From Prosthecodimorpha staleyi (lineage in GTDB: Bacteria > Pseudomonadota > Alphaproteobacteria > Rhizobiales > Ancalomicrobiaceae), in NCBI RefSeq assembly GCF_018729455.1, contig NZ_JAHHZF010000013.1, positions 173,162 to 222,470 on the forward strand: DNA of 49,309 nt. The letters are read 5' to 3'. The notes under the pieces were generated by a model that saw only the letters and a list, made by a program, of their open reading frames with translations, was not told the origin of the DNA and searched no databases. Shown in pieces: positions 8,901 through 28,910 of this stretch. Position 1 is the first letter of the stretch, and each line of letters begins with the position of its first letter. Made by a program: the position numbers and the translations under genes.

Positions 8901-8920
8901 CGGGCGCGTGGGGACAGTTG

Positions 8921-9889
8921 GTGGCGAACGAAGACTGGCATGGCAAGATCGGGGGTCCGCAACGGCGGGCGCTCGTCGTTCTGGGCATGCATCGGAGCGG
9001 GACCTCTGCGCTGGCCGGGAGCCTCGCGGCTCTCGGGGCGGGCACGCCGGCGCGCCTGATGCGGCCGGCGCGGTTCAATCCGCGCGGATATTGGGAGCCG
9101 GTCGCCATCGTCGCGGTCCATGACGAAATTCTGAGTGCGATCGAGATCGAGTGGTCGTCCTGGCGCTCGGTACCCGCCGCATGGTTCCGCTCGGATATGG
9201 CGGCCCGCTACCGGGCGATCCTGTCCGACCTCGTCCTGTCCGAGTATGGCGCGTCGCCCCTGTTCGTCGTGAAGGACCCGCGCATGTGCCGGCTTCTGCC
9301 ACTCTGGCACCGGGTCTTCGCCGGTCTTGGGATTGCTCCGGCTTTCCTCATTGCGCTCCGCCATCCGCTGGCCGTGGCCGCCTCGCTGGAGCGTCGGGAA
9401 GGGATCGGCACCAGTCGTGCCGTTCTCGTCTGGATGCGTCACATGCTGGAAGCGGAAGCCTCGACGCGGGACCGGGTCCGTGCCTTCGTGAGCTACGAGG
9501 GTGTGCTCGCCGATTGGCGCGCGGAACTGGGCGAGGCCGGCCGTCGCATCAAGTTCGATTGGCCGCTCGACGAAGACGACCGGCGGGCTGCGGTGGACGC
9601 CTTCCTGTCGGCGGACCTCCGCCATCATGCGCCGCCGCCCTTCGACGACGCCCTCCAGGGCATCCTGCCGCACGCCGCCACGGTCTATCGGCTTCTGAAC
9701 GCGCTCAGAGCCGGCGACGACAGCGCCGCAAACCGGGCGACGCTGGATGCCATTCGTCGCGAGACGGACGCGTGGTGCCGGCTGTTCGGCAATATCGGGC
9801 CGGAACACGAACCGGCCGACGGCCGCAAGAAGGCGCCACCCGCACTGGACGCCGAAGCTCCGAAGTCGCCGCCGCCGACAATCCCCTGA
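8921..9889 (+). CDS. Sulfotransferase family protein
   Basis: This 322-residue protein has the P-loop-like 5'-phosphosulfate motif LGMHRSGTSALAGSLAALG near the N-terminus and the KDPRMCRLLPLW and ALRHPLAVAASLERR motifs that resemble the 3'-phosphate-binding Arg region of PAPS sulfotransferases. Such enzymes, or relatives acting on other donors, modify surface polysaccharides or proteins. The start is a GTG at 8921 (or TTG three bases earlier); no ATG lies before the P-loop Met. The last 35 residues are Pro/Lys-rich. It converges on the methyltransferase operon and probably belongs to the same glycan locus. Confidence 0.8.
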   Translation: MANEDWHGKIGGPQRRALVVLGMHRSGTSALAGSLAALGAGTPARLMRPARFNPRGYWEPVAIVAVHDEILSAIEIEWSSWRSVPAAWFRSDMAARYRAILSDLVLSEYGASPLFVVKDPRMCRLLPLWHRVFAGLGIAPAFLIALRHPLAVAASLERREGIGTSRAVLVWMRHMLEAEASTRDRVRAFVSYEGVLADWRAELGEAGRRIKFDWPLDEDDRRAAVDAFLSADLRHHAPPPFDDALQGILPHAATVYRLLNALRAGDDSAANRATLDAIRRETDAWCRLFGNIGPEHEPADGRKKAPPALDAEAPKSPPPTIP

Positions 9890-9938
9890 AGCGATCGCGG
9901 CGGGCCGCCGTGATCGGAGCCTGCTCTCGTGGTTCGAT

Positions 9939-9965
9939 CGAGACGGATGGTACCCATCCGTCTCG
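9939..9965 (+). terminator. Perfect 12-bp hairpin after the sulfotransferase gene
   Basis: CGAGACGGATGG and CCATCCGTCTCG pair perfectly around a three-base TAC loop, 50 bases after the stop. There is no T tract, but the stability and position fit a terminator. Confidence 0.6.
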
Positions 9966-9999
9966 TGAATCCGAAGCATTAACTCTTTGACTCCGCGGT

Positions 10000-10031
10000 C
10001 AATTCAATCTGACGTCAATTCATTCTGACAT
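10000..10031. repeat. Two tandem 16-bp repeats
   Basis: CAATTCAATCTGACGT is followed at once by CAATTCATTCTGACAT, identical at 14 of 16 positions. The second copy runs into the neighbouring hairpin. It could be a binding-site pair or a product of slippage. Confidence 0.5.
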
Positions 10032-10056: not shown

Positions 10057-10061
10057 GACCA

Positions 10062-10964
10062 CTAGCGGGTCGCCATCGCGACGGCGTAGTGGGTCTCTCC
10101 CAGCAGGGTCAAGCTTTCGTCGAGCAGCAGCGCGGTCTTCAGGAGCCCCTCGTCGGCCTGCTCGTCGATGTTGGACAGGATGTCGTTGAGCGCCGAATGA
10201 TAGATGACGCCGCCGGTCAGCCTGATCTGGATGTCCGGAAAGATCGCCTTGAGCGACGGGATGATCCGGTCGCTGTCGGCGGCTTCGGACGGATCTTCGG
10301 CGATCATCAAATCGATCGACGGGCGCAGGACCGCGCGCGGGATCGATCGCGCGGGATCGCCTGGTGCGACGAGATAGCGATCCGGCAGGCCCTGGCGGAA
10401 TCGGCTGCCGAAGTCGAGCATCCGGTCCGTCCACTGGAAGCGGGACGGTCCGACGAAGTCGTTCATCGCAAAGACGCCGCCGGCGCGCAGGCGCTCCCGG
10501 CTCCAGGCGACCGCCATCTCGGTATCCGGCATGTGATGAAGGGCGTCATGCCAGTAGACGAGGTCGAAGGTGCGATCCCGGCAATCCGTGAAGGCGTCGG
10601 TCTCGTGGAAGAAGACCTTGTCGGTGATGCCGAGCCTCTCGGCATGCTGGCGTCCGGCGGCGATCCGAACACTGCTGATCTCGTAGAGGTGGAACTCGCC
10701 AACCAGGCCCGCGACGACCAGTTCCATCTCCATCACGCCGGTCCCGCATCCGACGGAGACCGCGCGGGCGAACGGGCCGCTCGACGCTGCCTGCTCGATC
10801 AGGTGATGGAAGCCGGCATGGGCTCCCGGCCTCGGCTGACCGGTCGTCATGCGATTGATATGGGCGTGAATGGTCGGGAACTGCCACCATCGCGACCGCG
10901 CCGGCAGCGACCGGCGCTGCGCATCGTTCCAGAATGCGGCGGCTTTGCTGGTCGTCGGGTCCAT
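10062..10964 (-). CDS. SAM-dependent methyltransferase
   Basis: This 300-residue class I methyltransferase has motif I as VSVGCGTGVMEMEL (about residues 80-93), an acidic motif II (HLYEIS), and YWHDALHHMPD followed by ERLRAGGVFAMNDFVG, the usual motif IV to VI region. The start ATG has a clean GGGAGG six bases upstream. It is the last gene of the leftward operon headed by the giant glycosyltransferase, so the likely acceptor is a sugar of the surface glycan. No membrane segment is seen. The chemistry (O- or N-methylation) cannot be told from the sequence. Confidence 0.82.
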   Translation of the reverse strand: MDPTTSKAAAFWNDAQRRSLPARSRWWQFPTIHAHINRMTTGQPRPGAHAGFHHLIEQAASSGPFARAVSVGCGTGVMEMELVVAGLVGEFHLYEISSVRIAAGRQHAERLGITDKVFFHETDAFTDCRDRTFDLVYWHDALHHMPDTEMAVAWSRERLRAGGVFAMNDFVGPSRFQWTDRMLDFGSRFRQGLPDRYLVAPGDPARSIPRAVLRPSIDLMIAEDPSEAADSDRIIPSLKAIFPDIQIRLTGGVIYHSALNDILSNIDEQADEGLLKTALLLDESLTLLGETHYAVAMATR

Positions 10965-11044: not shown

Positions 11045-11740
11045 TCAGGCGCCCGGGGCGGGTCGCTGGAGGCTTCGATAGCGGGAGTCCTCGCGCAGAT
11101 AGGCGCCCACGGCGGCGAGAACGGCGGCCGATTTCGCGATCAGGTGGACGGCCTCCGTATCGCCTGTGACCGGATCGGCCGTCTGGACGATGAGCAGATG
11201 CAGTCCGGCCTCGGCCAGGCCGAACCGAACTGCAAAGTCGCGCCCGTAGAGGTGGAAATACTGGTGCACGCCGGTGGCGGTCTCGAAGTCCTGGCTGAAC
11301 TCGCGCGAGAGGGGCCGCGAGACGACGAGATGGATCAGTCCGGCGGGACTGAGGATGCGGGTCAGTTCGCGAAAGGACGCCCGGTCGTCGGGCACGAATT
11401 CGAGAACGTGGCTGAGCGATATGAAATCGTAGGCTTCGTCCGGACGGTCGATCTTCTGCAGATCGAGGCTGTTCTGGCCGCCATAGACGGAGACTTCCAG
11501 CGAAGCGAACCAAGACGGCGCCAGGGCGACGTCCGGGCTGAACTGCAAGCCCCGCCGCCAGGACAGGACCCCGATCGGCAGGTGCTGGAACAGCGCGCGA
11601 TTGGCGCGATGCCGCTCCAGCGAGCCGCACCGGGCGCAATGGGGCGGCTTGCCGGACTCGGACATGCGGCCGGCGGGGCCGGGCGAAAACACGGTCCCGC
11701 CGCAGACCGTGCAGGCGGGGGTGGGCGAGACACTGGTCAT
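11045..11740 (-). CDS. Zinc-ribbon class I methyltransferase-like protein
   Basis: This 231-residue protein begins with a two-CxxC zinc ribbon (CTVCGG at about 10-15 and CARC at about 35-38) followed by SLERHR, LPIGVLSWR and a degenerate methyltransferase core in which HVLEFVPDDRASFRELTRIL marks motif IV. Motif I is LQFSPD rather than GxGxG, a variant known in other sugar-locus methyltransferases. The whole chain is clearly paralogous to the C-terminal third of the fusion protein at 26643-28910. It has an AGGA ribosome site and lies between the dehydrogenase and the second methyltransferase of the operon. Confidence 0.78.
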   Translation of the reverse strand: MTSVSPTPACTVCGGTVFSPGPAGRMSESGKPPHCARCGSLERHRANRALFQHLPIGVLSWRRGLQFSPDVALAPSWFASLEVSVYGGQNSLDLQKIDRPDEAYDFISLSHVLEFVPDDRASFRELTRILSPAGLIHLVVSRPLSREFSQDFETATGVHQYFHLYGRDFAVRFGLAEAGLHLLIVQTADPVTGDTEAVHLIAKSAAVLAAVGAYLREDSRYRSLQRPAPGA

Positions 11741-11859: not shown

Positions 11860-13212
11860 TCAGGCCTTGACGATTCGATCGGCATGCCGGTCGACATGAC
11901 GCATTGCGTTGCGCGTGTCCACGATCAGCGGACAGCCCTGCGCCAGCATCTCGTAGTCGATCAGGTCGTGATCCGTGACGATCAGCGCCGCATCGAACCG
12001 AGCCAGAGTGCCCGGCGACCATTCGACCGACCGCAGACCGGCCAGGTCCGGGTGCTCGCGCGTGATCGGGATCGTCGGGATGTGGGGATCGTAGAACTCG
12101 ACCTCCGCCTTGCGCGCGCGCAGCAGTTCCATCAGCCGCAGGCCGGGCGATTCGCGGCAGTCGTCGACATTCTTCTTGTAGGCGATGCCGATGAGCAGAA
12201 TGCGGGCGCGGCTCAGGCTCTTGCCGTGGCGCAGATCCAGTGCCTCGGCCAACCGGTCGACCACGTAGCGCGGCATCATGGTATTGATTTCGCCGGCCAG
12301 TTCGATGAAGCGCGTCGAGATCTCGTATTCGCGCGCCTTCCAGGTCAGGTAGAAGGGATCGATCGGGATGCAGTGACCGCCCAGGCCCGGACCCGGGTAG
12401 AACGGCATGTAGCCGAACGGTTTCGACTTCGCCGCCTCGATCACCTCCCAGATGTCGATGTTCATCCGGTCGAACACGATCTTCAATTCGTTGACGAGCG
12501 CGATGTTGACCGATCGGAAGATGTTTTCCGTCAGCTTGGTCGCCTCGGCCACTCTGGCGGACGACACGGGAACGACGTTCGAGACGACCTGCGCGTAGAG
12601 GGCCGTGGCGAGGGCCCGGGCCGTGTCGCCGTCGCCGCCGACCACCTTGGGGATGCTGGTGGTCGAGAACTGGATGTTGCCGGGATCTTCGCGCTCCGGC
12701 GAGTAGGCAAGAAAGAAGTCGGTGCCGGACTTGAGGCCGGTTTCCTCGAGGATCGGGCGCACGACCTCTTCGGTCGTGCCGGGGTAGGTGGTCGATTCGA
12801 GCACGATCAGCTGGCCGGGCCGGAGATGGTCCCGGATCATGCGGGCGGTGGCGACGACGAAACCGAGATCGGGCTCCCGCTGCGGCGTCAGCGGGGTCGG
12901 CACGCAGATGATGACCGCATCGGCGGCATCGAGCGCCCGGGCATCCGATGTCGCGTGGAACCGGCCCGTGGCCACGGCCGCCGCGATGCGCGCGTCCGCG
13001 ATCTGCTGGATGTAGGATCGGCCGGCATTCAGGTGCTCGGTCTTGCCGGCATCGATGTCGAAGCCGGTGGTCGGAAAGCCGGCGCCGCACAGAGCCAGCG
13101 CCAGCGGCAATCCGACATAGCCGAGGCCGATGACGGCGACGCGCGCCGTGTGCGCTCGGAAGTGGGCGTCGGGACGGTCCGAACCGGCGGGAGAATTGTC
13201 TTCCAAGATCAT
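11860..13212 (-). CDS. UDP-glucose/GDP-mannose dehydrogenase family, WbpA/TviB-like
   Basis: This 450-residue NAD-dependent four-electron dehydrogenase turns a nucleotide sugar into its uronic acid. The Rossmann motif VAVIGLGYVGLPLA begins near residue 25, the TxxPGT motif reads STTYPGT, and the catalytic Cys lies in PGLGGHCIPIDPFYL. The spacing and the GIAYKKNVDDCRESP segment are typical of UDP-N-acetylglucosamine 6-dehydrogenases (WbpA/TviB) rather than UDP-glucose dehydrogenases, so UDP-GlcNAcA is the likely product. The ATG overlaps the stop of the giant glycosyltransferase (ATGA), which ties precursor supply to the polymerising enzyme. Confidence 0.9.
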   Translation of the reverse strand: MILEDNSPAGSDRPDAHFRAHTARVAVIGLGYVGLPLALALCGAGFPTTGFDIDAGKTEHLNAGRSYIQQIADARIAAAVATGRFHATSDARALDAADAVIICVPTPLTPQREPDLGFVVATARMIRDHLRPGQLIVLESTTYPGTTEEVVRPILEETGLKSGTDFFLAYSPEREDPGNIQFSTTSIPKVVGGDGDTARALATALYAQVVSNVVPVSSARVAEATKLTENIFRSVNIALVNELKIVFDRMNIDIWEVIEAAKSKPFGYMPFYPGPGLGGHCIPIDPFYLTWKAREYEISTRFIELAGEINTMMPRYVVDRLAEALDLRHGKSLSRARILLIGIAYKKNVDDCRESPGLRLMELLRARKAEVEFYDPHIPTIPITREHPDLAGLRSVEWSPGTLARFDAALIVTDHDLIDYEMLAQGCPLIVDTRNAMRHVDRHADRIVKA

Positions 13213-16200
13213 GCCTGTTCTTTGAGGGCGGCCTGGGCCTGGAAACGGGCGACGATGTCCAGGATGTCCGAGACGCGGTGGTCGAAGGTGTGCCGGGCGA
13301 GCACGATGCTGCGCAGGGCGGCGCCCATGGCCTTGCGCCGGTCGTCGTCGGACAACAGCGCCCGTACGGTCGCGCCGAGATCGTCCGCGTTCCGGTAGGT
13401 GGCGACCGCGTCACCGAACAGGTCGGTCATGCCGGGCACGTCGTCGCTGACGATGGCGGCGCCGCAGGCCCCCGCATCGAAAATGCGGTTCGAGACGAAC
13501 CCCTCCCGCTTCATGTCCTGCCAGTGATCGTTGAAGACGATCTTGGCATTGGCGTAATGGTGGCGCAGCCGTTCGTTCGGCAGATAGGTGCCGCGGATCT
13601 GCTTCTCGGGGATCAACCCGTCCCACCGGCTGCCGTAGACGCCGACATCGAGCCCCGCCCGAACGGCATCGTCGATGATCGGACGCCGGACGCCGCGGGA
13701 ATTGGCGACGAACAGGAGGTCCGGCACCGCCGCGGGCTCCGCTTCGGCGTCGCGCCTGTCGCCGTCGTGAAAGTCGCCATCATGAAACAGGGCCGGGTCG
13801 GTGCATTGCAGGAGCGGCGACACGCGGTCGCCGAGCCGGCGGCGCAGGACTTCGGCATAGGAATCCGAAGCGACGAAGACATGGTCGTAGGCGTCCAGCT
13901 CGCTCAGCGGCACGTCGTCCGGATGGCTGATCAGCCAGAGCAGGTTGATCTTCGAGGCGACCGGCTTCCATGCCGACAGCCCGCGCAGCACGAGCACGAC
14001 ATCGTCTCCGGCGCCCTGCTGGGTGGCCCAATCGGGCAGGATGTCGATGCGCGCGAAATGCCCGGCCCGGGTCAGCGCGCGCTGCAATCCGAGAGCGAAA
14101 TGCCAGTCGCCCCAGGAGAGCTTCTCCTCGTGGTTGGGGACGCCGATCTTGATGCTGAAGCGCAGGGTGCTGCGGGCGAAAGCCCGCAGGGCGTCCCTGA
14201 ACGCCATCGCCCGGTTCTTGTAGGTGTGCTTCTCCCGCACTTCGGCGCAGAGCCGCGCGGCCAGGGCGGCCCGCTCCTCCGGGTGGGCCAGATAGCGGGC
14301 CAGCAGCGCCGACAATTCCTCGGCGGTGGAGAAGGTCGGCAGCAGGTCGCCGAACAACTCCCTGGCGCCGCCCCGGCAGTTGGTGACGACCAACGCCCCG
14401 CTGCCCAGCGCATCGAAGATGCGCGAGTTCAGCGAATTCCAGGTCCGCGTGACCGGGTGCGAATCGTCGATGACCAGCCTGGCGGACGGGTAGATGTCGG
14501 GCAGCTCGTAATAGGGCACCGAGCGGCGCCAGTGCCGGCGCCAGCGCGGATGATCTCCCCATCCGTAGCCGTAGATCGCCAGGGACCCCGGCAGGTCGAC
14601 CTTGTCCAGAAGCCCGACGGCCTCCCGTTCGTGGCTGAGATAGTAGCTGCCGGTGAAGACGATGTCGGTGCGGTGTTCCTCGACCGGTTCCCGGGGCGAG
14701 AAGCGCTCGTCGTTCGTCGCGATCGGCAGCAGATAGGCGGTCCGTCCGGTCGCCTCGGCGATATGGCGGATCGCCAGTTCCGACGAGCAGAAGATCAGAT
14801 TGTAGGATTGGAAATGCGGCGAGGCCAGCCATTCGTCGACCCGGTTGCGGATCCAGGCGACCGTGACCAGTCCCGGATTGGCGCTGCGGGCCTTGCCCAG
14901 GTCGTAGTCGTGGCGCATCGCGACGGCCACGTCTGTCCCCTGCAGGTCGTGCAAATTGAACCTGACGAACAGCGTTTCCCAGCCGTACAGCTTGCGCATG
15001 GCCGAGGCCATTTCCATCGCGGTGTAGAAGTCGCCGGCGGGGGTCGAGAAGGAGGCGTCGGTCACGATGAAGGTGACGCGCAGCGGGCGCGCGCGCCAGA
15101 CGGTCTCGCCGTCGATCAGCGACTGGAGCGTGCGATGGACGATCCGGCGCTTGAAATGCGCGTTGAAGGTCTGATGGTTGGCGATCTGCGATTTGGGATT
15201 CGACAGGATCGGATTGGGCTTGCCTGAGACGAGGCGGGCCGTCCGGGTGTAGCTGCGATTGTGGATCGCGGTGACCGAGGTGTCGCAGACGATGCGCCGG
15301 CCGATCCGCTCGGCCATCCGCAGGCACAGGTCGACATCCTCCATGCCGTAGAAATAGGCCTCGTCGAAGCCGCCGACGGCCAGGAAGTCCGCCTTGCGGC
15401 AGAGGAGCGCGGCACCGGTCACCGCCGGCAGTTCGTAGGCGGCGCCGATATCGGAATATTCGTCGGCCACCTCCGCGGGGTGATAGGTCACCTCGCCGGA
15501 CGCCTGGATCCGCGGACGGAACTGGATCCCGCGGTGGTGTGTCTCGTAATGCAGCGTGCCGCTCTGGTCGGGGATCGGCTCGACCAGCCGCATTCCGACG
15601 ACGCCGACGGTCGGATCGCGCTCCAGCCAGCCGGCCATCGCGGGCAGGCAGTCGCCGGTGAACAGGATGTCGTTGTTGACGAAGAACAGATACTCGCCCG
15701 AGGCCATGCCGGCGGCGAGATTGTTGGACGACGAGAACGAGAAATTCGCGTGGCGCGGGACGATCTTCAGATCCAGCCTCGACCGGAAGCCGCCGGCCAC
15801 GTCGAGGCTGTCGTCCGACGAGCCGTGGTCGACCACGATGACCTCGACCGGCCGCGAGGTCATGTGCCGGGCGATGGTTTCCAGGGTCTGCGCGAGGATC
15901 CGGGCGCCGTCCCAGTTCAGGATGATGATGCTGACGCGGCCGGCCGGAGATGCGGCGGCGGCCTGGGGTGGCCGGCTGACGATGTTGGTCAGCGGCAGCG
16001 CCATGGTGTCGCTGCGCGGGGACAGGCTGTCGTAGGCGGCGAAGAAGTCGACCAGCGGGAACAGGACGCGGCGGCTGCGTTCCCGTTTCTCGCCGAACTC
16101 CAGCACCGCGCCCCCGCCCTCGACGACGCGCGCCTCGATGATGCGCCAGGTGCCGTTCATCAGATGCGTCGGCCACCGGAAGCTGAATGCGTGGAACCCG

Positions 16201-17744
16201 CTTTCGGTCACCGTCTGCAAGCGCTTCTGGAACTGATTGGCCGTCACGATGGCGACCGAGACGCCGTCGACCAGAAGCGAGATGCGGATGGGCCGGAAGG
16301 GTGCCTGCAGGTTGACCGCCCAGCCTTCGACGGTCTCGCAGTCGACATGCTCCACCCGGCCGGCAAAGCGGTCGCTCTTGCCCTGCAGGAGGTTCCGGCC
16401 GAGGTTTGTCGGCAGGCGGCGATGGCTCGGAAAGGTCAGGGCTTCGCCGGCAACCTTCAGCGTCAGCCAATGACCCAAGCCGTCGAACAAGGCTTGGGGA
16501 ACCGGCAGGCTGAAGCCGTGGTTGCCGAAGATGCCGTATTTGGCATTGACATCGTTTCGGGTCACATTCGTTTCGGTGCTGGCGACGAAACGCTTTCCGT
16601 CCCACAATTCGACCGTCACGACGGCATCGGCCATGGTGCTGTCGAAAGCCCAGCCGCGAATGATGCCACCTTCGACGGAATCGACCGACATCAGCACCTT
16701 CGCCTGGTACAGCGCCAGATTCCGACCGCTGGCGTTTGGCAGATGCCGCCCCGGTTCGCCAGCCGGCGTGACGCCGAGCCGATGAGGCCGGTTGTCGGCG
16801 AGCGCCTGGGGCAAGTGATAGGTGAAGGATGCGAGCGGTCGGTAGGGCGTGTCGGCCGACGGCTCGGCCACCGTGACGGTCAGTTCCGCGAGCTTTTCGC
16901 CGTCGCACCAGACCGCCAGGCGGATCGTTCCGCGTGCCGCCGGGATCAGCCATCCCTGGATTTCCCGGCCGAGGATGCGCCAGCTGCCGTCGAGAATGCC
17001 CGTGGACAACGAACGCGGTATCGGGCCCGATGCCGCATTCTGACGCAGCGGCGCGACCGTATCGGACGGCATCGCGTCCTGGTTCGCAGCCGTGTCCGAT
17101 ACCGGCGCCAAGACCGGGGCGGGGTCGAAGCCGTCGGTGGATGCCCAGCCGGTCGGTTCGGGGCTTTGGAGGTCGTCCGCGGGACGGCGCGCCACCTCCC
17201 TCAATCGGTCGAGAAACGCTGCATTGTTGAACGGCACGGTGACATCCGGCAGGACGTCCAAGTCGATCGCTTCGGACAGATGTCGGATGCGCAGAGCCGC
17301 CGGGGCGTCGGGTGCCGCCGCAACGGCTTGCGACAGGTCGTCCAGGATCGGGATGATGACGGCGGGCGGGATTTGCGCCCAATCAATTTGAAATCCGCCG
17401 AGACAGTCGGCTCTTCCGATGGCGGCAGCCAGATCGGGGCGGTGCCGGTCGGCAAGGATCGACCCGAGAGTCCGTCCCTGGAAGACCAGCTCGAGTTCGG
17501 CGATCGGGGCGTCTTCATCCGTGCCGATGCACCACCCGCCAAGGCTGGTGTCGTTGCACCATTCGACCGCGCCGCGAATGCCGGGTGGTTCACGCAGATT
17601 GCCAAGGTTCCAAGATGCCGCGACCGCAGGTTCCGTCGTTTCCGCCGCGTCCGGGACGGCTGGATATTCTGCGTCCGCCGATGGCGCCACGAACACGTTC
17701 GTTAACATTCCTTCGGTTGCGGATCGACGTCCAAGCTGAACCAA
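13209..17744 (-). CDS. Giant multidomain glycosyltransferase (N-terminal modules, GT2, two GT4/CgeB-like domains)
   Basis: This is a 1511-residue protein. Residues 50-560 hold about four repeats of a beta-rich module marked by a Gly-Trp motif (GGWCIG, QGWLIP, RGWAFD, EGWAVN), each followed by a strand with DG. Residues 603-835 are a GT2 domain with VSIIILNWDG, VVDHGSSDDS, the metal-site FFVNND and GMEDVDLCLRM. Residues 890-1190 and 1195-1500 are two CgeB/GT4-like domains; both end with a motif of the type IFDALGSGALVVTN or IFDAGACGAAIVSD, which binds the donor nucleotide in this superfamily. There is no signal peptide or membrane segment. The start is TTG 17744 or ATG 17708; neither has a good ribosome site. 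It leads the operon to the dehydrogenase and methyltransferases. It should assemble a repeating glycan; the sugars are unknown. Confidence 0.85.
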   Translation of the reverse strand: MVQLGRRSATEGMLTNVFVAPSADAEYPAVPDAAETTEPAVAASWNLGNLREPPGIRGAVEWCNDTSLGGWCIGTDEDAPIAELELVFQGRTLGSILADRHRPDLAAAIGRADCLGGFQIDWAQIPPAVIIPILDDLSQAVAAAPDAPAALRIRHLSEAIDLDVLPDVTVPFNNAAFLDRLREVARRPADDLQSPEPTGWASTDGFDPAPVLAPVSDTAANQDAMPSDTVAPLRQNAASGPIPRSLSTGILDGSWRILGREIQGWLIPAARGTIRLAVWCDGEKLAELTVTVAEPSADTPYRPLASFTYHLPQALADNRPHRLGVTPAGEPGRHLPNASGRNLALYQAKVLMSVDSVEGGIIRGWAFDSTMADAVVTVELWDGKRFVASTETNVTRNDVNAKYGIFGNHGFSLPVPQALFDGLGHWLTLKVAGEALTFPSHRRLPTNLGRNLLQGKSDRFAGRVEHVDCETVEGWAVNLQAPFRPIRISLLVDGVSVAIVTANQFQKRLQTVTESGFHAFSFRWPTHLMNGTWRIIEARVVEGGGAVLEFGEKRERSRRVLFPLVDFFAAYDSLSPRSDTMALPLTNIVSRPPQAAAASPAGRVSIIILNWDGARILAQTLETIARHMTSRPVEVIVVDHGSSDDSLDVAGGFRSRLDLKIVPRHANFSFSSSNNLAAGMASGEYLFFVNNDILFTGDCLPAMAGWLERDPTVGVVGMRLVEPIPDQSGTLHYETHHRGIQFRPRIQASGEVTYHPAEVADEYSDIGAAYELPAVTGAALLCRKADFLAVGGFDEAYFYGMEDVDLCLRMAERIGRRIVCDTSVTAIHNRSYTRTARLVSGKPNPILSNPKSQIANHQTFNAHFKRRIVHRTLQSLIDGETVWRARPLRVTFIVTDASFSTPAGDFYTAMEMASAMRKLYGWETLFVRFNLHDLQGTDVAVAMRHDYDLGKARSANPGLVTVAWIRNRVDEWLASPHFQSYNLIFCSSELAIRHIAEATGRTAYLLPIATNDERFSPREPVEEHRTDIVFTGSYYLSHEREAVGLLDKVDLPGSLAIYGYGWGDHPRWRRHWRRSVPYYELPDIYPSARLVIDDSHPVTRTWNSLNSRIFDALGSGALVVTNCRGGARELFGDLLPTFSTAEELSALLARYLAHPEERAALAARLCAEVREKHTYKNRAMAFRDALRAFARSTLRFSIKIGVPNHEEKLSWGDWHFALGLQRALTRAGHFARIDILPDWATQQGAGDDVVLVLRGLSAWKPVASKINLLWLISHPDDVPLSELDAYDHVFVASDSYAEVLRRRLGDRVSPLLQCTDPALFHDGDFHDGDRRDAEAEPAAVPDLLFVANSRGVRRPIIDDAVRAGLDVGVYGSRWDGLIPEKQIRGTYLPNERLRHHYANAKIVFNDHWQDMKREGFVSNRIFDAGACGAAIVSDDVPGMTDLFGDAVATYRNADDLGATVRALLSDDDRRKAMGAALRSIVLARHTFDHRVSDILDIVARFQAQAALKEQA

Positions 17745-18804
17745 AGATAGTCTCCAGAATTGCTACGTTACGTATCGTCAGGAGATCCGATCCTCACCGA
17801 TCCTCCCGGCTAGCACAGGATGCCAATCCTAAAAACAGTAGCTTCCGCTACTCGATCCGACCCGCTGGACCTGCATCAATCTCCCGTCTATCGAATTTGT
17901 GTGACGAAGGTGACCACCTGAATCACAGGATTGCAAGATTATGGCAACGGGGGAATACGGGTCGGAACTGAGGACTGGCATGCGCTACCTTGTTGGCGAA
18001 CCGGCTCACCCAGGAACAGCCGCGCTTTATTTCCAAGATTTCCCAAACGCTTGGAAGACTACCGGGATTTTTCCAGGGGCGCATGGCATCAATTCCGACA
18101 TTGCCGCCCACCGTGGTGGCGAAGGTGCCGATCGATCTTGATCTGCCCTACACCCTTCACCTCCGTAGAGAAAATCGTCCGGTGGATCGTTCCGTTGCGA
18201 GATCCGGGGGGCAATATCATCAGCTGTTTGTCATTTTGCAAGTGCGTCGAAAAATCACTTCGACAATAATACCGCTATTTCGAATTTTATGAGAGTCCTA
18301 ATTGTCAAATAAGAAGGGCATGAGTTGTTTTATATTGAAAAGAATTACAGGATATGCGAGCCGTCTGAGTGGAAGTAATACAATAATGTCTTGAAAATAA
18401 TTATTAATATATTCAATAAATATAATTTATATTTATTGAATATTGCAATAATTGTTACGAGCATTTATATGCTTGGATATTTCTGAATTGTTTCTATTTC
18501 AAAATTCTTCGAAGGCAAGCACCGCCGAGACCAGGCCGGCTTATGCCTTGGTTGCGCGCAGCGGACAAGTCTGACCTCATCTCACATCGATAGATTGAAT
18601 AGTATTGATTTGTTTATTTGATATCGTTTCCCGATTTTCGGGCGTCGCGAGATGTGATCTCTTCGTCTAAGCTGGAATTGATCCTGAGATTCGCTGTAAT
18701 TTCTGGCTGCATCGGCGATAGGGATCTCGATAGAAGCGAGGCGCATACTCGATGGTTCGGCACTACAACTTTCAGTCGCGCCTTGGATATTTTCGGTTGA
18801 GCGG
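17745..18804. other. 1-kb AT-rich divergent intergenic region
   Basis: It separates the leftward giant glycosyltransferase operon from the rightward deacetylase. No credible gene is seen. Nucleotides 18240-18530 are strikingly AT-rich in an otherwise GC-rich window, which suggests transferred DNA or a silencer and promoter region bound by an H-NS/MucR-like protein. Several short reading frames between 17930 and 18300 have atypical codon use and no family-like sequence. Confidence 0.55.
18409..18443. repeat. 17-bp-arm AT palindrome
   Basis: The arms begin with ATATTCAATAAATATAA and close with TTATATTTATTGAATAT around one central T, with perfect pairing. It lies at the centre of the AT-rich gap and could be a regulator site, a transposon-end relic or a cruciform. 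Confidence 0.65.
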
Positions 18805-21404: not shown

Positions 21405-21852
21405 TCCGGCGCCTTCCTTGCCCTGGGCCCGCCCCTGGCGACCTAGGACGGACGGACCGATTTTGCAATGCGGCGGTCCTCTTTCGCGCCCGCCCGCCCA
21501 CCTGCTCGCCCGGACGGGTCGGCGGATTTGGACGGGCGGTGTGACCGGCGGGGGCCGCGACCGGCATCCAAAAGCGCGGCGCCGGCAGCCTCATTTCGCC
21601 AAGACACAATCTAAGAGCGTATAAATCGCGAGAAAACGATCGAAGATCGTATTGTTCCGCGAAAATGCGTGGCAACCAGCGCATCATTGACGCTCATGGG
21701 AGAGGCAGTATACGCCAGCATGAGAGTGCGATTAGGTTTGCATTTGTCAAAAGAGGGAGCGCCTGTATTTTTGGTTGTATAGGCATCTTTCTCTACCATT
21801 AGATAGAATCTCTCGATAAGCCGCAGTATTGACTACCGGAAAAGGGTCCGCC
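21405..21852. other. 450-bp divergent intergenic region
   Basis: No gene is seen. It holds a short inverted repeat ACGATC-GAA-GATCGT near 21636-21650 and an AT-rich stretch (about 21600-21830) that should carry the promoter of the right giant glycosyltransferase. Confidence 0.4.
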
Positions 21853-24800
21853 ATGAGCCAGAGAAGCCTCTCGACATCCTGGTCGGATGCCGATTCGGTG
21901 GGGGTCGAAGCAGCCCGGTCCGGGGTCCGCGCCGCGACGATCCGTGCGATGTCCAGTTGGGCGCTGGACGATCTGGCCGCGGCGCCATCGATCCGAGGGG
22001 CTGTGGAGCAGGTAACGGCCGGTGGCGTGCGCGGGTGGTGCCTTTGGGCATCCGATCCCCGGTCGATCGTCGATCTGGAGATCTCGTTTCTCGGCATCCC
22101 GCTCTGCGCCGCCAGGACGGGCGTCGGGCGTCCGGATATCGGTGGCATCCTGGGGCGGGGAACCGTCCCGGTCGGTTTCGAGATCGCCTGGGCTTCGCTT
22201 TGGTTCGGCGATGTCGATACGGGTGCGTTGGTGGCCGAGGTGGCGCGCGCGCCCCATGCACCCGCCGCGGTATCCGTCCGGGTCGCCGCCGCCGGCCGAC
22301 CTTATCTGCCGGTTCTGCCCAATGCGGACCTTGCGCTCACGAATGCCGAAATGCTCGCCATCGTCCGGGAGCGGACGGCTCCGACCGGCGGCATCGACAG
22401 CGTCGATCTGCTGACGGTCGATGCGCAGATCTGCTGGCCCGGCAAGGAGCGGCCGATCACGGTGGCGCTGACGGTGGACGGGCGCGCCGTGGCCGCGGAG
22501 AAGATCGCTGCGCGGGCGCCTACGGACGGCATCGAACGGATCCGGATCCCGATCCCGGCCGATCTGATCGATGGGGGAATCCATCGAATCGGTCTTCTCG
22601 CCGTAGCCGAACCGCCGGCCCCGGTCGGCGCGACGATCGAGGTGCGTTTGTCGGTCGTCAGCGAGGCGGCCTGGTCGGTCCGTGGAACGCTCGTCGAGGG
22701 CTGGATCGTCGGGGCCTGCGATCGGGCGGTGACGCTCGATCTCCTCGCCGACGGCAGCGTCGTCGCCTCCGTGCCGGTGACGCTTGAAGCCGGCCGACCG
22801 GTCAGCTTCGCCGGCATGCTGCCGCACCAATTGACCGACGGTCAGACGCATAGGCTGCAGGTCGCCGTGTCCGGGGAACGGGTCATGCCGCTGAAGCATG
22901 TCTCCGGGGGCCTGGAGGTGGATTTCCGGCGCCGGATCGCGGCTCGGGTCGAGGCGACCACCAACGGGTCGATCCAAGGCTGGGCCTTCGACCGCCTGGC
23001 GCCGGAAGCGGCCGTCGAGGTCGAGCTTTGGGAGGGACCGGTCCTGCTCGGCCGGACGATGACGAATCTCATCCGGTCCGATGTGAACAAGGCCTTCGAT
23101 CTGCAGGGCCCGCACGGCTTCGCGCTGTCGATCCCGGCCCGGCATTTCGACGGGATGGTGCATCAGTTGACGCTCCGGATCGGGGGCGAGGAGATCTCGA
23201 TCGCGCCGGACAAGCGCTTGCCGAAGATCCTGGCGCCGTCCCTGATCGCCGATCCGGCGCTGCGCTATGCCGGCCGCGTCGAGATCGTGTCGGCACAGCA
23301 GGTCTCCGGCTGGGCGGTCAATCGCCTCGCACCCTCCGAACCGGTTTCGGTGTCGATCTTCGTCGACGGCGTCTGCGAGGCGGTCGTTTCCGCCGATCAA
23401 TTCCAGAAGCGCCTCCAGAGCATCGCCGGTTCGGGCTACCATATCTTCCAGTACAAGTTCCCGCTGCGTCTGATGAACAACAGCCTGCGGACCGTGGAGG
23501 TCTTCATCAGCGACGGGCATGTTCCGCTCGAGGTCATTCTGCACGGCAAGCCCCCGGGCGAGCGGAGCTCCAAGATTGAGGTATTCTTTCCGCTGATCGA
23601 CTATTTCGGCGCCACCGTCGGCGCCCCGGCTTGCAACGATCCCTATCCGCACCGGCTGACCAACATCGTCGAAGGCCGCCCGAACCCGACGCCGCTCCGG
23701 CCGGCCGGCTCGGGCGATCCCGAGGTCAGCTTCATTCTGCTGAACTGGAACGGAGCGCCGCTGCTCGATCAGATGCTCGAGTCCGTCGCGACGCACATGG
23801 CCGGCGAGAGCATCGAGCTGCTGATCGTCGACCACGGCTCGACCGACGACAGCCTGGCGGTCATCGAAAAGTACCGCGCAAAGCTCGATATCCGGCTGTT
23901 TGCCCGGGGCGCGAACTTCTCCTTTTCGGCGTCGAACAATTACGCCGCCGCGCGGGCCAGGGGGCGCTATGTCTTCCTGGTCAACAACGACCTGGTCTTT
24001 CCGAGCAACTGCCTGCCCACTCTGCTGTCCTGGCTCGAACAGGATCCTTCGGTCGGCATCGTCGGCGCGGGCCTGCTCGAACCCCTGCCCAAGGCCGGCG
24101 GCGGATGGCGATACGCCTCGCACCATCGCGGCGTCCAGTTCGCGCCGTTCCTGCGCGCGGGCGACGATCCGACCTTCGGGGCGATCGAGACCCACGACGC
24201 CTACTCCGCCATCGGCGCGGCCCTGGAGGTGCCGGCCGTCACGGGTGCCGCCCTGCTGTGCCGGCGCGAGGATTTCCTGGCCGTCGGCGGACTGGACGAG
24301 ATGTACTTCTACGGCATGGAGGATATCGACCTCTGCATGCGCATGTCGCGCCATTTCGGCACGCGCATCATCTGCGACCTGTCGGCGATCATCCTGCACA
24401 ATCGCAGCTTTACCCGGACGGGCCGTCTGGTGACCGGGAAGCCCAATCCGGTCCTGACCCAGTCCGCCAGTCAGAACCGGAACACCATTCTGTTCAGCCA
24501 GCGCTTCAAGCGGCGGTTCGTGCAGGCATCGCTGGCTTCGGCGATCGAGAGCCAGACCCTGTGGCGCAACCAGCCGCTTCGCGTCACCTTCGTGGTCAGC
24601 GAGGTCTCGCTGGAGGCCCCGGCGGGCGACTTCTCCATCGCCCTGGAGATGGCTGAGGCCTTGCGATCCGGTTCTGCGTGGGAGGTCGCCTTCGCGCTTC
24701 CGGAAACGACCGACGTGATCGGGACCGATGTCCTGGTCGTGATGCGCCCCGACTTCGATCTCGCCGCGGTCCGCAACGGAAATCCCGGCATGGTCTCTGT

Positions 24801-26394
24801 CGCCTGGATCGGAGACCGCGTCGACCGATGGCAGGAAACGGCGCATCTGCAGGGCTACAATCTGCTGTTCTGCACGTCGTCGCTCGGGGTCGAAACGATT
24901 GCGCGGACGACGGGCCGGACAGCCCACCTGCTGCCGCTCGCCGCCAACGACGAGCGCTTCCATCCCGGGACATCGGTGCCGCACGATGCGGCCGACATCG
25001 TCTTCGTCGGCAGCCGCCACGATGGCCGGTCGCGGGCGGCCGTCGACCTGCTCGGCGAGATCAATCTGACCGGCGAGGTGGCAATCTACGGCTTCGGCTG
25101 GGATCGTCCGCCGCAACCGGCCGGACATTGGCGCGGTCCGCGCCGCTATGACGAACTGCCGGAGATCTACGCCTCCGCCAAGATCGTCGTCGACGATTCC
25201 CGTCCGGCCCGGCAGGAATGGGGTGCGCTCAATGCCCAGGTCTTCGACGTGCTGGCATCGGGCAGTCTCGCCGTCACCAATTGCCGGGGCGGATCGCAGG
25301 ATCTGTTCGGCGGCCGCCTGCCGACCTTCGCCGACAGCGCGGAACTGGCGGACCTGCTCAAGCGCCATCTCGACCACCCGGCCGAACGGGAGGCATTGGC
25401 GGCGGCCCTGCGCGCCGAGGTTCTGGAAAAGCACACCTACCGGCACCGCGCCGAAACCTTCAAGTCGGCCCTGGCTGCCCTGGTGCGGGACAGTCTGCGC
25501 TTCGCGATCAAGGTTGCGGCGGACGGTGCCGATGACCGCGACGGATTCGAGACTTGGCAGATGGCCCTCGGCCTGCAGCGCGCCCTGCACCGGGCCGGGC
25601 ACTTCGCCCGCGTCGATGTCAGGCCCGATTGGGGTTACGGTCAGTCTGCGGGTGACGACGTCGTCATCGTGCTGCAGGGCGGCGGCGCCTACAAGCCGGC
25701 GCCGTCCAAGATCAACATCCTGTGGCTGACGGACGGTCCGGACGACCTCCCGTTGGCGCAATTCGACAGCTACGACCATATCTTCGTCGCGTCGGCCAAC
25801 CTGGCCGACCGCCTGAAGTATCGCCTGGGCGAGCGGGTCTCGGCGCTGCTGCCCTGCGTCGACCCGGAGGTCTTCCGGCCGGTCGAGGCGGAGCCGGAAA
25901 CGGTCGCCGATGTGGCCTTCGTGGGCGGCTGCAGTGGCGGACGTCCGGCCATCGTCGATGCGGCGCTGCAGGCCGGAATCGCGGTCCGCGCGTTCGGACC
26001 GGGCTGGGACGGACAGGTTCCGGCCGGATCGGCGTGCGGCATGTCGCTCGCCGCGGAGGCGCGCCGTGCCTGCTATTCGGGCGCCGGGATCGTTCTGCAC
26101 CAGCATTCGGCCAGCATGCGCCGGGAGGGTATCGTCTCGACCTGGCTGATGGAGGCCGGAGCCTGCGGGGCTGCGGTGATCTCCGACGATCTTGCGGGTC
26201 TGTCGGAGATCTTCGGCGATGCCGTCGCCATCTGCAACGGCGCCGAAGACCTGGAAGCCAAGACGCGCGCGCTGCTCGCCGACGGCGATCGGCGGCGGGC
26301 GATGGGTGCCGACCTGCGCCGGATCATCGTGGAACGGCATACGGCCGATCAGCGCGTGCAGGACATTCTGAAAGTGGTCGAATCCTTCCGGTAA
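21853..26394 (+). CDS. Giant multidomain glycosyltransferase, paralogue of the one at 13209-17744
   Basis: This 1513-residue protein has the same architecture as the left giant. Four or five Gly-Trp modules (RGWCLW, EGWIVG, QGWAFD, SGWAVN) fill residues 50-590. A GT2 domain follows at about 625-865 with VSFILLNWNG, IVDHGSTDDS, FLVNND and GMEDIDLCMRM. Two CgeB/GT4-like domains occupy about 905-1215 and 1220-1510. Stretches such as NFSFSASNN, CRGGSQDLFG, GDDVVIVLQG and SKINILWL match the left protein nearly word for word, so the pair arose by duplication. The start at ATG 21853 is chosen over a TTG at 21829. It precedes the sulfotransferase-methyltransferase fusion by 248 bases in the same direction. 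Confidence 0.86.
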   Translation: MSQRSLSTSWSDADSVGVEAARSGVRAATIRAMSSWALDDLAAAPSIRGAVEQVTAGGVRGWCLWASDPRSIVDLEISFLGIPLCAARTGVGRPDIGGILGRGTVPVGFEIAWASLWFGDVDTGALVAEVARAPHAPAAVSVRVAAAGRPYLPVLPNADLALTNAEMLAIVRERTAPTGGIDSVDLLTVDAQICWPGKERPITVALTVDGRAVAAEKIAARAPTDGIERIRIPIPADLIDGGIHRIGLLAVAEPPAPVGATIEVRLSVVSEAAWSVRGTLVEGWIVGACDRAVTLDLLADGSVVASVPVTLEAGRPVSFAGMLPHQLTDGQTHRLQVAVSGERVMPLKHVSGGLEVDFRRRIAARVEATTNGSIQGWAFDRLAPEAAVEVELWEGPVLLGRTMTNLIRSDVNKAFDLQGPHGFALSIPARHFDGMVHQLTLRIGGEEISIAPDKRLPKILAPSLIADPALRYAGRVEIVSAQQVSGWAVNRLAPSEPVSVSIFVDGVCEAVVSADQFQKRLQSIAGSGYHIFQYKFPLRLMNNSLRTVEVFISDGHVPLEVILHGKPPGERSSKIEVFFPLIDYFGATVGAPACNDPYPHRLTNIVEGRPNPTPLRPAGSGDPEVSFILLNWNGAPLLDQMLESVATHMAGESIELLIVDHGSTDDSLAVIEKYRAKLDIRLFARGANFSFSASNNYAAARARGRYVFLVNNDLVFPSNCLPTLLSWLEQDPSVGIVGAGLLEPLPKAGGGWRYASHHRGVQFAPFLRAGDDPTFGAIETHDAYSAIGAALEVPAVTGAALLCRREDFLAVGGLDEMYFYGMEDIDLCMRMSRHFGTRIICDLSAIILHNRSFTRTGRLVTGKPNPVLTQSASQNRNTILFSQRFKRRFVQASLASAIESQTLWRNQPLRVTFVVSEVSLEAPAGDFSIALEMAEALRSGSAWEVAFALPETTDVIGTDVLVVMRPDFDLAAVRNGNPGMVSVAWIGDRVDRWQETAHLQGYNLLFCTSSLGVETIARTTGRTAHLLPLAANDERFHPGTSVPHDAADIVFVGSRHDGRSRAAVDLLGEINLTGEVAIYGFGWDRPPQPAGHWRGPRRYDELPEIYASAKIVVDDSRPARQEWGALNAQVFDVLASGSLAVTNCRGGSQDLFGGRLPTFADSAELADLLKRHLDHPAEREALAAALRAEVLEKHTYRHRAETFKSALAALVRDSLRFAIKVAADGADDRDGFETWQMALGLQRALHRAGHFARVDVRPDWGYGQSAGDDVVIVLQGGGAYKPAPSKINILWLTDGPDDLPLAQFDSYDHIFVASANLADRLKYRLGERVSALLPCVDPEVFRPVEAEPETVADVAFVGGCSGGRPAIVDAALQAGIAVRAFGPGWDGQVPAGSACGMSLAAEARRACYSGAGIVLHQHSASMRREGIVSTWLMEAGACGAAVISDDLAGLSEIFGDAVAICNGAEDLEAKTRALLADGDRRRAMGADLRRIIVERHTADQRVQDILKVVESFR

Positions 26395-26642
26395 GGGCGC
26401 AAATGCCCGGAACGGTTCATGACAGCCGGCGGCGGCCTGTCCGGCGGCCCGCTGCGGAAGTATTGCCGCGCCGAGCGGTTCGGATCGAAGCGGGCGCGTG
26501 TCGATGAAGCGAGCCGGACGCGGCACCCGCTCGGATATCCGGTCGGAACGGATCGGCCGGCCGATGCCGGCCAGGACCCGGCGACCGCCGCATCGCCGGC
26601 ACGCGACGCCCATCGGGGATGGGATCGGAGAGGATCTTTCGG

Positions 26643-28910
26643 ATGCTGTTCAATCAGGTCTCGAAGCCGCAAGGCGATGCGGTCTTCATCCATGTCCATG
26701 TTCCGCGGACCGGCGGCACGTCGCTGCGCCGGCTGTTCGAGCGGACGTTCGGGGCCGAGTCCTTCATCTTCAACTACAATGGCGAGATCGAGACGGCGAC
26801 ACCCGAACAACGCGACAAGTGCCGGCTGATCAGCGGTCACATACCGTACGGAGTGCACAGGTACTTTTCGAAACCCTGCCACTACATCACCGCGACGCGC
26901 GATCCGATCGCCCGCTACCAGTCCCTCTATGCCGAGTTCCTCACCAATTCCAACAGCCGGCTGCACCATGCGGCGGTGCGCTACGGCATCGACGATTTTC
27001 TGCGCTTCTGCATCTACAGCGACGATGCCTATACGCTCCACCAACTGGGCAACCTGCAGTGCCGGCTGATCTCCGGATCGAATGATTTCGAGACCGCCAA
27101 GGCATTCATCGACAGCAAGTATCTGCTGGCCTGTCCGTTGCCGGAACTGGATCTGATGGTCGCCATGTTGGCGGAGGTTGCCGGAGCGGGCGACGTGGGC
27201 GCCGTCGAGCGGGTGAACTGGTCGGCGCCGCGCCTGGAGGGCCTACCGTCCCGGTTGGTCCTGTCGGACGCGTCGCTGGACCTGCTGTTCGAACACGACT
27301 CGGGCGATTTCCACCTGCACAGCTATGTGCAGCAGGCCTTTCGGAAGGTCGCCGAGACCTGGGTGCCGGGTGGGGCGCCGGGTGGGGCGCCGGATGCGGC
27401 GCCGGATGCGGCGCCGACACGGGCCGTTGCCGCGCCGGTGCCGCCCCGGCCGGACCCCGAAGAGCAGACCATCCCGCCATCCGACCTGCGCTTCATGGGC
27501 GAGGCCGATGCGGACTTCATGGGCATGGCACAGGCGTTGGCCGACCAGGTCCGCACCATGCTGCCTCGCGAGATCGGCGACGATTTCGAGCTTCTCGATG
27601 TCGGCTGCGGCTACGGCCGCCTTGCCTATGGTTTGAGGGCGCGGGACTATCCCGGCCGCTACACCGGCTTCGACTGCCTGCCGCGACAGATCGATTGGCT
27701 GAACCGGAATTTCGGGAACCGCGATGCCTATCGGTTCCATCATCTTGATCTCGTCAACGAACGCTACAATCCGACCGGCCGGCCGCTGGCCGACGTGAGC
27801 CTGCCGATGGCCGAGCAGTCCAGCGACTGTCTGGTCGCGCTTTCCGTGTTCACCCACATGTACGAACACGAAGTGGTCCAGTATTTCCGGCGGTTGAAGG
27901 CGTTGATAAGGGACGGCGGCCTGTTCATTGCCACGTTCTTCCGAATTCCGCCCGGGTTCGCTCTCGGCGCAAAATATCCGAATGCCATATACGAACTGAC
28001 CAAGCGGGTTTCGGAGAATGCCTTCATCGCGTCCGAAGACCAGCCGTTATGGGTCATCGCCTTCCGCGAGGCCTTCCTGTTGAAGCTCTTCGCGCGGGAA
28101 GGTTTCGAGGTTGTTCTGCAGCGCAAGGGCAAGTGGCTTTCCGGCGAGAACGCCCTGGGTCTGCAGGACTGGTTCATGCTCCGCAAGAAGCCATCTCCCG
28201 GCTCGGATACGGTCCGCTTCGCGCCGATCGCAACCAATGCCGATCCGGGGGTCTGCCCGATCTGCGGCTCGAAGGCCTTCGGGCCCGGTCCGGGCGGCCG
28301 TCTGGCCGCCAGCGGCAGCAATCCGCGGTGTCTGCAGTGCGATTCGCTGGAACGTCACCGCATCGTCCGCACCCTGTTCCACGGCCTGCCGATCGGGCTC
28401 CTCAATTGGCGGCATGCGCTTCTGATCGGCGCCAGCGCCGGGATCGAACCCGGCTGGTTCCGATCGATGGACCGTCTCGACCTCGAGCGGCCGGAGGACC
28501 TTGCCGAGCGGCTCGCCGCGCTCCCCGACGGCAGCTGCGACTTCGTGGTGCTCGACCATGTCCTTGAGTTCGTCGACGACGACCGGGCGGCGTTCGCGGC
28601 CTTGCGCCGGGTCCTGTCCGGGCGCGGCATCCTGCTGATCACCTTCGCAAATTCGGCACAGTCCGACCGAACCGTGGATTTTGCCGAGCCGACCGGCCCC
28701 TATGCGCGCTGGCACGCCTATGGTGCGGATCTGCCCCGTCACTTCGATCTCAAAGGCCACCGCATGCGCATTCTGGCCGTCTCGGTCGAAGACCCCGGCA
28801 CCGGGGTCCGGGAGACCGCGCACCTGTTCTTTTCCGATCAGGCGGCGTTTCATCAGGTCCGACGCGTGCTGGGCGTCTCGAACGCCACCGGCGCCGACGG
28901 GAGCGAATGA
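26643..28910 (+). CDS. Three-part fusion: sulfotransferase, SAM methyltransferase, zinc-ribbon methyltransferase
   Basis: This 755-residue protein has three parts. Residues 1-242 form a Sulfotransfer_2-type domain: FIHVHVPRTGGTSLRRLF supplies the phosphosulfate loop and TATRDPIARYQSLY the 3'-phosphate region. Residues 243-270 are a Pro/Ala linker of GGAP and DAAP repeats. Residues 280-515 are a class I methyltransferase with LLDVGCGYGRLAYGL. Residues 536-750 carry a two-CxxC zinc ribbon (CPICG, CLQC) and a methyltransferase-like core with DHVLEFVDDDRAAF, homologous to the separate protein at 11045-11740. ATG 26643 is favoured over 26619 because GGAGAGGA ends eight bases upstream. It follows the right giant glycosyltransferase and probably decorates its product. 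Confidence 0.85.
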   Translation: MLFNQVSKPQGDAVFIHVHVPRTGGTSLRRLFERTFGAESFIFNYNGEIETATPEQRDKCRLISGHIPYGVHRYFSKPCHYITATRDPIARYQSLYAEFLTNSNSRLHHAAVRYGIDDFLRFCIYSDDAYTLHQLGNLQCRLISGSNDFETAKAFIDSKYLLACPLPELDLMVAMLAEVAGAGDVGAVERVNWSAPRLEGLPSRLVLSDASLDLLFEHDSGDFHLHSYVQQAFRKVAETWVPGGAPGGAPDAAPDAAPTRAVAAPVPPRPDPEEQTIPPSDLRFMGEADADFMGMAQALADQVRTMLPREIGDDFELLDVGCGYGRLAYGLRARDYPGRYTGFDCLPRQIDWLNRNFGNRDAYRFHHLDLVNERYNPTGRPLADVSLPMAEQSSDCLVALSVFTHMYEHEVVQYFRRLKALIRDGGLFIATFFRIPPGFALGAKYPNAIYELTKRVSENAFIASEDQPLWVIAFREAFLLKLFAREGFEVVLQRKGKWLSGENALGLQDWFMLRKKPSPGSDTVRFAPIATNADPGVCPICGSKAFGPGPGGRLAASGSNPRCLQCDSLERHRIVRTLFHGLPIGLLNWRHALLIGASAGIEPGWFRSMDRLDLERPEDLAERLAALPDGSCDFVVLDHVLEFVDDDRAAFAALRRVLSGRGILLITFANSAQSDRTVDFAEPTGPYARWHAYGADLPRHFDLKGHRMRILAVSVEDPGTGVRETAHLFFSDQAAFHQVRRVLGVSNATGADGSE
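27369..27416 (+). repeat. In-frame 12-bp tandem repeats in the fusion linker
   Basis: Two copies of GGTGGGGCGCCG are followed by two copies of GATGCGGCGCCG. They encode two GGAP and two DAAP units. The unit length is a multiple of three, so copy-number change would alter linker length without breaking the frame. Confidence 0.8.

Follow-up and report, generated by a model that had tools for sequence, protein, structure and literature searches.

What does a pair of giant glycosyltransferase proteins, set back to back in mirror order within one glycan locus, do, and are the two copies still equivalent? The question is raised by a 49,309-nucleotide stretch of the Prosthecodimorpha staleyi genome (hereafter the window; contig C13:173162-222470 of the 6.19 Mb assembly G000), in which 35 genes were called and 16 of the products, including that of every locus gene listed in Table 1, were scanned against Pfam. 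A comparison genome from the same genus (G001) is that of Prosthecodimorpha (formerly Prosthecomicrobium) hirschii, NZ_LJYW01000001.1, with 6,323,789 bases. We read the region as a locus for the assembly of a decorated surface polysaccharide, in which the left giant would be an active enzyme with three glycosyltransferase (GT) domains and the right one a copy with a GT2 domain and an altered last GT4 domain (GT4b); the probability we give to this reading is about one in two. The asymmetric right giant is the real oddity of the locus.

A preliminary description, made from the letters alone, had proposed two divergent paralogues of 1511 and 1513 residues with the same layout, and this was borne out, the second length being the one counted from an inner ATG. 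Each giant is a single open frame, the two point apart, and BLASTP aligns them over nearly their full length with 667 of 1509 residues identical (44%). Both contain a GT2 domain (PF00535) well above the Pfam cut-off (63.9 and 66.4 bits vs 23.3), with the stretches NNDI/NNDL and MEDVDLC/MEDIDLC, in which we take NND and ED to be the motifs important for GT2 function. Two further stretches per giant, GT4a and GT4b, match PF13524 (Glyco_trans_1_2, CgeB-like GT4; 177.8 and 148.3 bits vs a cut-off of 25). A profile search also finds four Gly-Trp (GW) modules in each giant, although the profile was built from the window and P. hirschii giants and the window copies therefore match partly by construction; Pfam gives no match for this module in the giants. 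When solved structures were searched by sequence, only the GT2 part of the giants was matched, for example by chondroitin and heparosan synthases, with nothing below E 0.25 for the N-terminal 600 residues. No 19-residue hydropathy window exceeds 1.6 in either giant or in the three-part fusion that follows the right one, and PHROGs yields no match for the giants.

Could the giants be an artefact, either separate genes that an error of assembly or frame has joined or a duplicate in decay? Joining by assembly error, raised in the preliminary description as a way in which its proposal might fail, is very unlikely, because the assembly of P. hirschii contains unbroken frames of the same kind, 88% and 92% identical to those of the window. 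For an artefact of any sort, the altered right GT4b is the one feature in favour, and it is set against these unbroken frames, a dN/dS of at most 0.31 in any giant domain and a layout shared with Paracoccus and genome G235, which together make the artefact exceedingly improbable. The two-arm gene set itself is conserved in the two species, the locus being collinear in P. hirschii with 82-99% identity per gene and 80% in one GH13 segment.

The origin of the mirror can be addressed from the relationship between its arms. In a tree of the GT4 domains the two giants come out as sisters (support 98/98), with the G121 protein as the next branch, and they also group in the GT2 tree (99/99), both trees being midpoint rooted. 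Inverted DNA similarity between the giant arms amounts to ~66% over 2.8 kb in a blastn comparison of the window with the P. hirschii copy, and in the same comparison the zinc-ribbon genes show ~69% over some 154-165 bases; inverted similar stretches occur within the window itself as well. Sister giants and residual inverted DNA similarity, taken together, argue that the mirror arose when the giant was duplicated in inverted orientation long ago. The left zinc-ribbon methyltransferase, whose Cys pairs are seen directly in the sequence, matches the C-terminus of the fusion (39% over 202 aa), and its gene was probably part of the duplicated block. There is no BLASTP relation between the left S-adenosylmethionine (SAM) methyltransferase and the fusion, and none between the left sulfotransferase-like protein and the fusion; on these grounds the duplication would have covered the giant and, probably, the zinc-ribbon gene, and no other part of the mirror.

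Hence, the mirror duplication of the preliminary description is real and old, but the idea of equal arms was rejected, given the unrelated SAM methyltransferases and the unequal change in GT4b: the last right domain is altered, the UDP-glucose/GDP-mannose dehydrogenase (UGDH) exists on the left only and a single methyltransferase is mirrored. The zinc-ribbon and SAM methyltransferases said to follow each giant, separate on the left and fused on the right, are present as described, but on the left the UGDH gene intervenes between them and the giant, only the zinc-ribbon parts are homologous and the fusion begins with a sulfotransferase-like domain. As a side observation, the LHxAPE stretch shared by three zinc-ribbon methyltransferase relatives corresponds to LQFSPD in the left protein (11045-11740) and to LLIGAS in the right domain (fusion residues 546-747). 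None of these proteins, left, right or relatives, has the classic glycine-rich motif I, which we assume to be a criterion for methyltransferases, and the right domain is possibly a pseudo-methyltransferase.

The two giants have evolved unequally, with a branch of 0.76 for the right and 0.18 for the left. An initial count of changes, made over columns invariant in all rows other than the right giant (GT2 0/44, GT4a 13/58 and GT4b 21/53 changed), favours the left by construction and was replaced by a fairer one using columns invariant in four outgroups only, which retains the GT4b result and weakens that for GT4a. In GT4b, 27 of the 73 outgroup-invariant residues are changed in the right giant vs 6 in the left (p 5e-5), and with six outgroups the figures are 21/57 and 4/57. 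In GT2 it is the left copy that changes more (12/56 vs 7/56 on the right, p 0.06). The altered stretches of the right GT4b correspond to WGDWH, ISH, NDHW and SNRIFD of the left one, and neither of the two right GT4 domains retains the Arg of the NSR.FD / SNR.FD motif; with 27 of 73 positions changed, the right GT4b lacks the CgeB-type signature as it occurs in the outgroups, and the changed residues are presumably catalytic. Between the two species dN/dS is 0.10 for GT4a and 0.26 for GT4b in the right giant, vs 0.10 and 0.15 in the left. Since the values for the right giant lie at 0.10-0.26 across its domains, it has been retained: it is kept by purifying selection and is not decaying.

These data bear on two other views of the pair. 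Both giants might be fully active three-step enzymes, the right one having changed its donor or acceptor specificity, and make two glycans or two halves of a repeat. The purifying selection on the right giant (0.10 in GT4a), its retained GT2 motifs, a GT4a change not significantly above that of the left and decorators separately fused on the right would all suit such an arrangement; yet the 27 changed GT4b sites include WGD-H, ISH, NDHW and SNR.FD, five of them differ between the species, and loss fits this pattern better than a shift; we consider full activity of both giants rather unlikely. More doubtful is that they form a glycosyltransferase/pseudo-glycosyltransferase pair, in which a complete left giant and a right giant with an active GT2 and at least one dead CgeB domain, serving for glycan binding or as a scaffold, would act as one heteromeric polymerase; if true, it would show how a pseudo-glycosyltransferase partner can arise within a single giant chain.

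According to the reading that we prefer, a decorated surface polysaccharide, the GT2 and the two CgeB-type GT4 domains of the left giant most likely act one after another in the cytoplasm to add three repeat-unit linkages, and the GW modules are putative acceptor-glycan or protein-docking modules. UGDH would supply an acidic sugar, the sulfotransferase-like, methyltransferase, pyruvyltransferase-like and deacetylase-like proteins would decorate the chain, and a capsule-type ABC system encoded elsewhere would export it. The old inverted duplication would have produced the right arm by copying the giant and probably the zinc-ribbon gene as well, after which the right copy would have evolved fast, retaining its GT2 motifs as the signature of the last GT4 eroded and the methyltransferase was fused to others. 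The right giant would then most likely work as a GT2 enzyme; its last GT4 domain would serve for binding or as a scaffold and no longer transfer a sugar, or would do so with a different specificity. Regarding the enzyme set that had been proposed, the UGDH and pyruvyltransferase domains were confirmed, and the sulfotransferase and deacetylase assignments lie below the Pfam cut-offs. The same applies to the two central genes, the pyruvyltransferase-like one being well supported (PF04230, E 2e-11) and the deacetylase-like one weakly (PF01522, E 0.009).

The preliminary description had also claimed that exporter and priming transferase are missing. Families of this kind are indeed absent among the 16 scanned window proteins, as are kinase families, methyltransferases being present, and no ABC exporter is found among the listed locus genes; capsule-type genes and priming transferases do exist elsewhere in the genome. 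Three PF02397 (priming) transferases are encoded there, and PF05159 (Capsule_synth, KpsC/KpsS-type) has 8 matches in the own genome, 8 in P. hirschii and 7 in genome G002. The own matches sit on contigs C14, C16 and C5. Genes for an ABC ATPase and an OPX protein lie close to a PF05159 gene on C14 (locus L053, 7364-19621), and pyruvyltransferase and deacetylase families also occur on this contig, with a sulfotransferase match below cut-off on C5. The missing exporter may thus be encoded elsewhere in the genome.

Several observations weigh against the polysaccharide reading. The six C14 proteins scanned include no permease, and the KpsE candidate there has only a FapA match below cut-off. PF05159 genes are also present in G002, a genome without giants, and therefore no link between the capsule-type genes and this locus is established. 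The deacetylase assignment and both sulfotransferase assignments fall under the Pfam cut-offs, that of the fusion with PF03567 at E 0.013. UGDH, the left sulfotransferase-like protein and the left zinc-ribbon protein each show hydropathy windows above 1.6, and neither UGDH nor a sulfotransferase gene occurs in the 20 kb around the G235 giant. With respect to asymmetry and duplication, the GT4a change is not significant (18/69 right vs 11/69 left, p 0.17), and a tree of the zinc-ribbon proteins leaves the left, the right and an S. sojae protein unordered, without recovering the sisterhood of left and right. Finally, AlphaFold2 models of residues 331-1511 (left) and 350-1521 (right), from four-row alignments, reached mean pLDDT values of 32.6 and 46.5 and are unusable. 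A Foldseek search with the right model gave GT-B matches such as SenB with rmsd above 20 Å and GT-A fragments at ~2.4-7 Å, and was not used as evidence.

The export data also fit another destination of the glycan, namely that the locus glycosylates a protein (flagellin, an adhesin or similar) or a lipid and does not make an exported capsule or exopolysaccharide. The absence of exporter and priming genes among the scanned window proteins, and of a complete identified exporter at the capsule-type genes elsewhere, would agree with it. Against this, Ruegeria pSD20, on which relatives of the last GT4 and of the sulfotransferase occur, is also annotated with genes for an ABC transporter, Kdo and pyruvyl- and acetyltransferases, and the many decorators would suit a polymer; we regard a protein or lipid target as improbable.

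Table 1. Coordinates and annotation of the features of the locus (positions are those of the window).
Feature	Position (strand)	Length	Evidence and remarks
Sulfotransferase-like gene	8918..9889 (+)	323 aa	Sulfotransfer_3 E 0.0099, under cut-off; convergent with left arm
Left class I SAM methyltransferase	10062..10964 (-)	300 aa	Pfam Methyltransf_31/11/12/25 above cut-offs
Left zinc-ribbon methyltransferase	11045..11740 (-)	231 aa	Pfam Methyltransf_11 E 1.4e-6
UGDH	11860..13212 (-)	450 aa	UDPG_MGDP_dh N, central and C domains
Left giant	13209..17744 (-)	1511 aa	4 GW modules, GT2, GT4a, GT4b; TTG start
Intergenic AT-rich gap	17745..18804		46% GC; flanked by divergent genes
Polysaccharide-deacetylase-like protein	18805..19734 (+)	309 aa	PF01522 E 0.009, PF10096 E 0.0075, both under cut-off
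Polysaccharide pyruvyltransferase-like protein	19614..21404 (-)	596 aa	PF04230 E 2e-11, above cut-off
Right giant	21829..26394 (+)	1521 aa from TTG; 1513 aa from ATG at codon 9	4 GW modules, GT2, GT4a, GT4b; GT2 motifs intact, conserved sites changed in part in GT4a and heavily in GT4b
Three-part fusion	26619..28910 (+)	763 aa	Sulfotransferase-like, SAM methyltransferase and zinc-ribbon methyltransferase parts

Concerning the layout, the start of UGDH overlaps the stop of the left giant, the 3' end of the pyruvyltransferase-like gene overlaps the deacetylase-like gene, and the ATG start of the left SAM methyltransferase is the fourth residue of the frame that was tested. The central gap is AT-rich as previously proposed; an AT-rich 30+30 palindrome lies in it (18396-18456), and bases 18279-18893 are without a blastn match to P. 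hirschii. Two near-perfect hairpins (9939-9965 and 10024-10052) separate the convergent sulfotransferase-like and methyltransferase genes, and a stretch of ~120 bases (9892-10013) matches, inverted and at 73%, the opposite side of the sulfotransferase gene in P. hirschii. An invertible sulfotransferase gene was considered and rejected, since its orientation is the same in P. hirschii and the repeats are the two short hairpins between convergent genes. Beyond the fusion lie two genes that we presume to be GH13 and GH15. A simple empty site in G002 was likewise rejected, the best transglutaminase and GH13-type homologues lying ~2 Mb apart there. Rfam gives no match at gathering scores, and NCBIfam nothing above family cut-off for eight locus proteins.

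The left giant is matched in 2 of 3 genus genomes (1e-30), in 10 of 397 genomes of the order (1e-40; own and P. hirschii included), among 385 genomes of the class in the own genome only (1e-60), and in 8 of 72,556 plasmid records (1e-20), where two candidates per genome were scored in the order and class searches; the right one is matched in 2 of 15 family genomes (1e-20). A pattern-based, and insensitive, scan of genome contigs returned P. hirschii only. Outside the genus, GW modules, GT2 and two PF13524 stretches are combined in the giants of Paracoccus yeei, P. aminophilus and G235; in G121 the protein carries GW and two PF13524 stretches, with GT2 as a separate gene nearby. The preliminary description would have been contradicted by homologues that occur singly among unrelated neighbours, and outside the genus this is largely what is seen: G235, G121 and P. 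aminophilus pAMI5 have one match each, and their neighbours differ. Among these single-giant relatives, UGDH adjoins the G121 giant and a sulfotransferase, 36% identical to the 8918..9889 product, that of P. aminophilus. That product has tblastn matches on 39 plasmid records, at 35-44% identity among the 30 listed, mostly annotated as sulfotransferase and including P. aminophilus and Ruegeria pSD20. The left SAM methyltransferase is 49% identical to a protein of G075 whose gene lies ~6 kb away from that of a GW-GT2 protein.

Within the order, full-length matches to the fusion were found only in the own genome and P. hirschii (397 genomes, with two candidates scored in each and 41 having some match); in other genomes of the order its three parts match separate frames, and of 108 plasmid records that match it none covers 80%. 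Solved structures yield nothing for it by sequence. A 12-base tandem repeat of 4.7 copies (27361-27416) lies in the Gly/Ala/Pro/Asp linker after its sulfotransferase-like domain.

The GW module occurs in 24 of 297 Hyphomicrobiales genomes. Nine GW proteins from 14 loci were scanned, of which six long ones carry GT domains and three short ones are without a Pfam family; the longest frame among these further GW proteins has 2066 aa. At 6 of the 14 fetched loci a GW protein is accompanied by a GT2 related to that of the giants and by a protein akin to the fusion's middle methyltransferase, a biased rate, as six loci had been picked for nearby GW and methyltransferase matches (five of them among the 6 positive). 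In genome G043 (locus L106, 6017-13381) GT2, methyltransferase, GT4, GW protein and a 756 aa protein without Pfam match are tightly packed. These arrangements suggest that the giant locus is a wider GT2-methyltransferase-GW cassette in fused and duplicated form.

The locus thus offers, in two species, a duplicated giant multi-module glycosyltransferase of which one copy has lost the signature of one domain with the whole protein still under selection, a setting in which one can test directly what altered or dead GT modules do in polymerases. It also draws attention to the GW module, joined to GT domains in six of the nine further proteins despite having no Pfam match.

How does it compare with known systems? 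Among the literature matches listed there is no recognised description of the locus or of such giants, and the P. hirschii genome paper (PMC4653794) leaves the locus unmentioned. The preliminary description knew no system by name for a single-chain glycan builder with decorators of its own and a mirror duplicate; multi-module polymerases are a kind already known from the O antigens of Klebsiella and E. coli (PMC11231755). In that paper K. pneumoniae O12 WbbB, E. coli O9 WbdA and K. pneumoniae O7 ORF6 have two or three GT modules per chain, and for some such polymerases the chain itself or a partner protein includes a methyltransferase module. The giants resemble the WbbB/WbdA-type, ABC-dependent polymerases in placing several GT modules in one chain, a likeness of architecture, but they differ in combining GT2, two CgeB-type GT4 and GW, in being mirrored paralogues and in having no ABC exporter among the scanned window genes.

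Homologous giants are borne on plasmids. WP_167553533 of P. yeei plasmid unnamed6 is 40% identical over left-giant residues 602-1497, and WP_020953013 of P. aminophilus pAMI5 35% over residues 456-1494, but each plasmid record has one place matching the left giant, unlike the mirrored pair here. The P. yeei plasmid adds dTDP-rhamnose genes and a nucleotide-sugar dehydrogenase, that of P. aminophilus the sulfotransferase mentioned above. The former, of 43 kb and typed as mobilizable, also encodes a second GW giant with GT2 and GT4 domains of other Pfam families. In Ruegeria sp. PR1b pSD20 and Phaeobacter sp. G2 a large protein includes, as here, a GT4b-type domain, and the plasmid that encodes it also has a homologous sulfotransferase gene, with no mirrored paralogues in the stretches read; pSD20 also shares an annotated pyruvyltransferase, and its annotated ABC transporter and Kdo genes set it apart from the window. 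Finally, the Hyphomicrobiales cassette, of which G043 with its additional GT4 is an example, holds GT2, the relative of the fusion's middle methyltransferase and GW side by side, as separate genes and not as fused giants.

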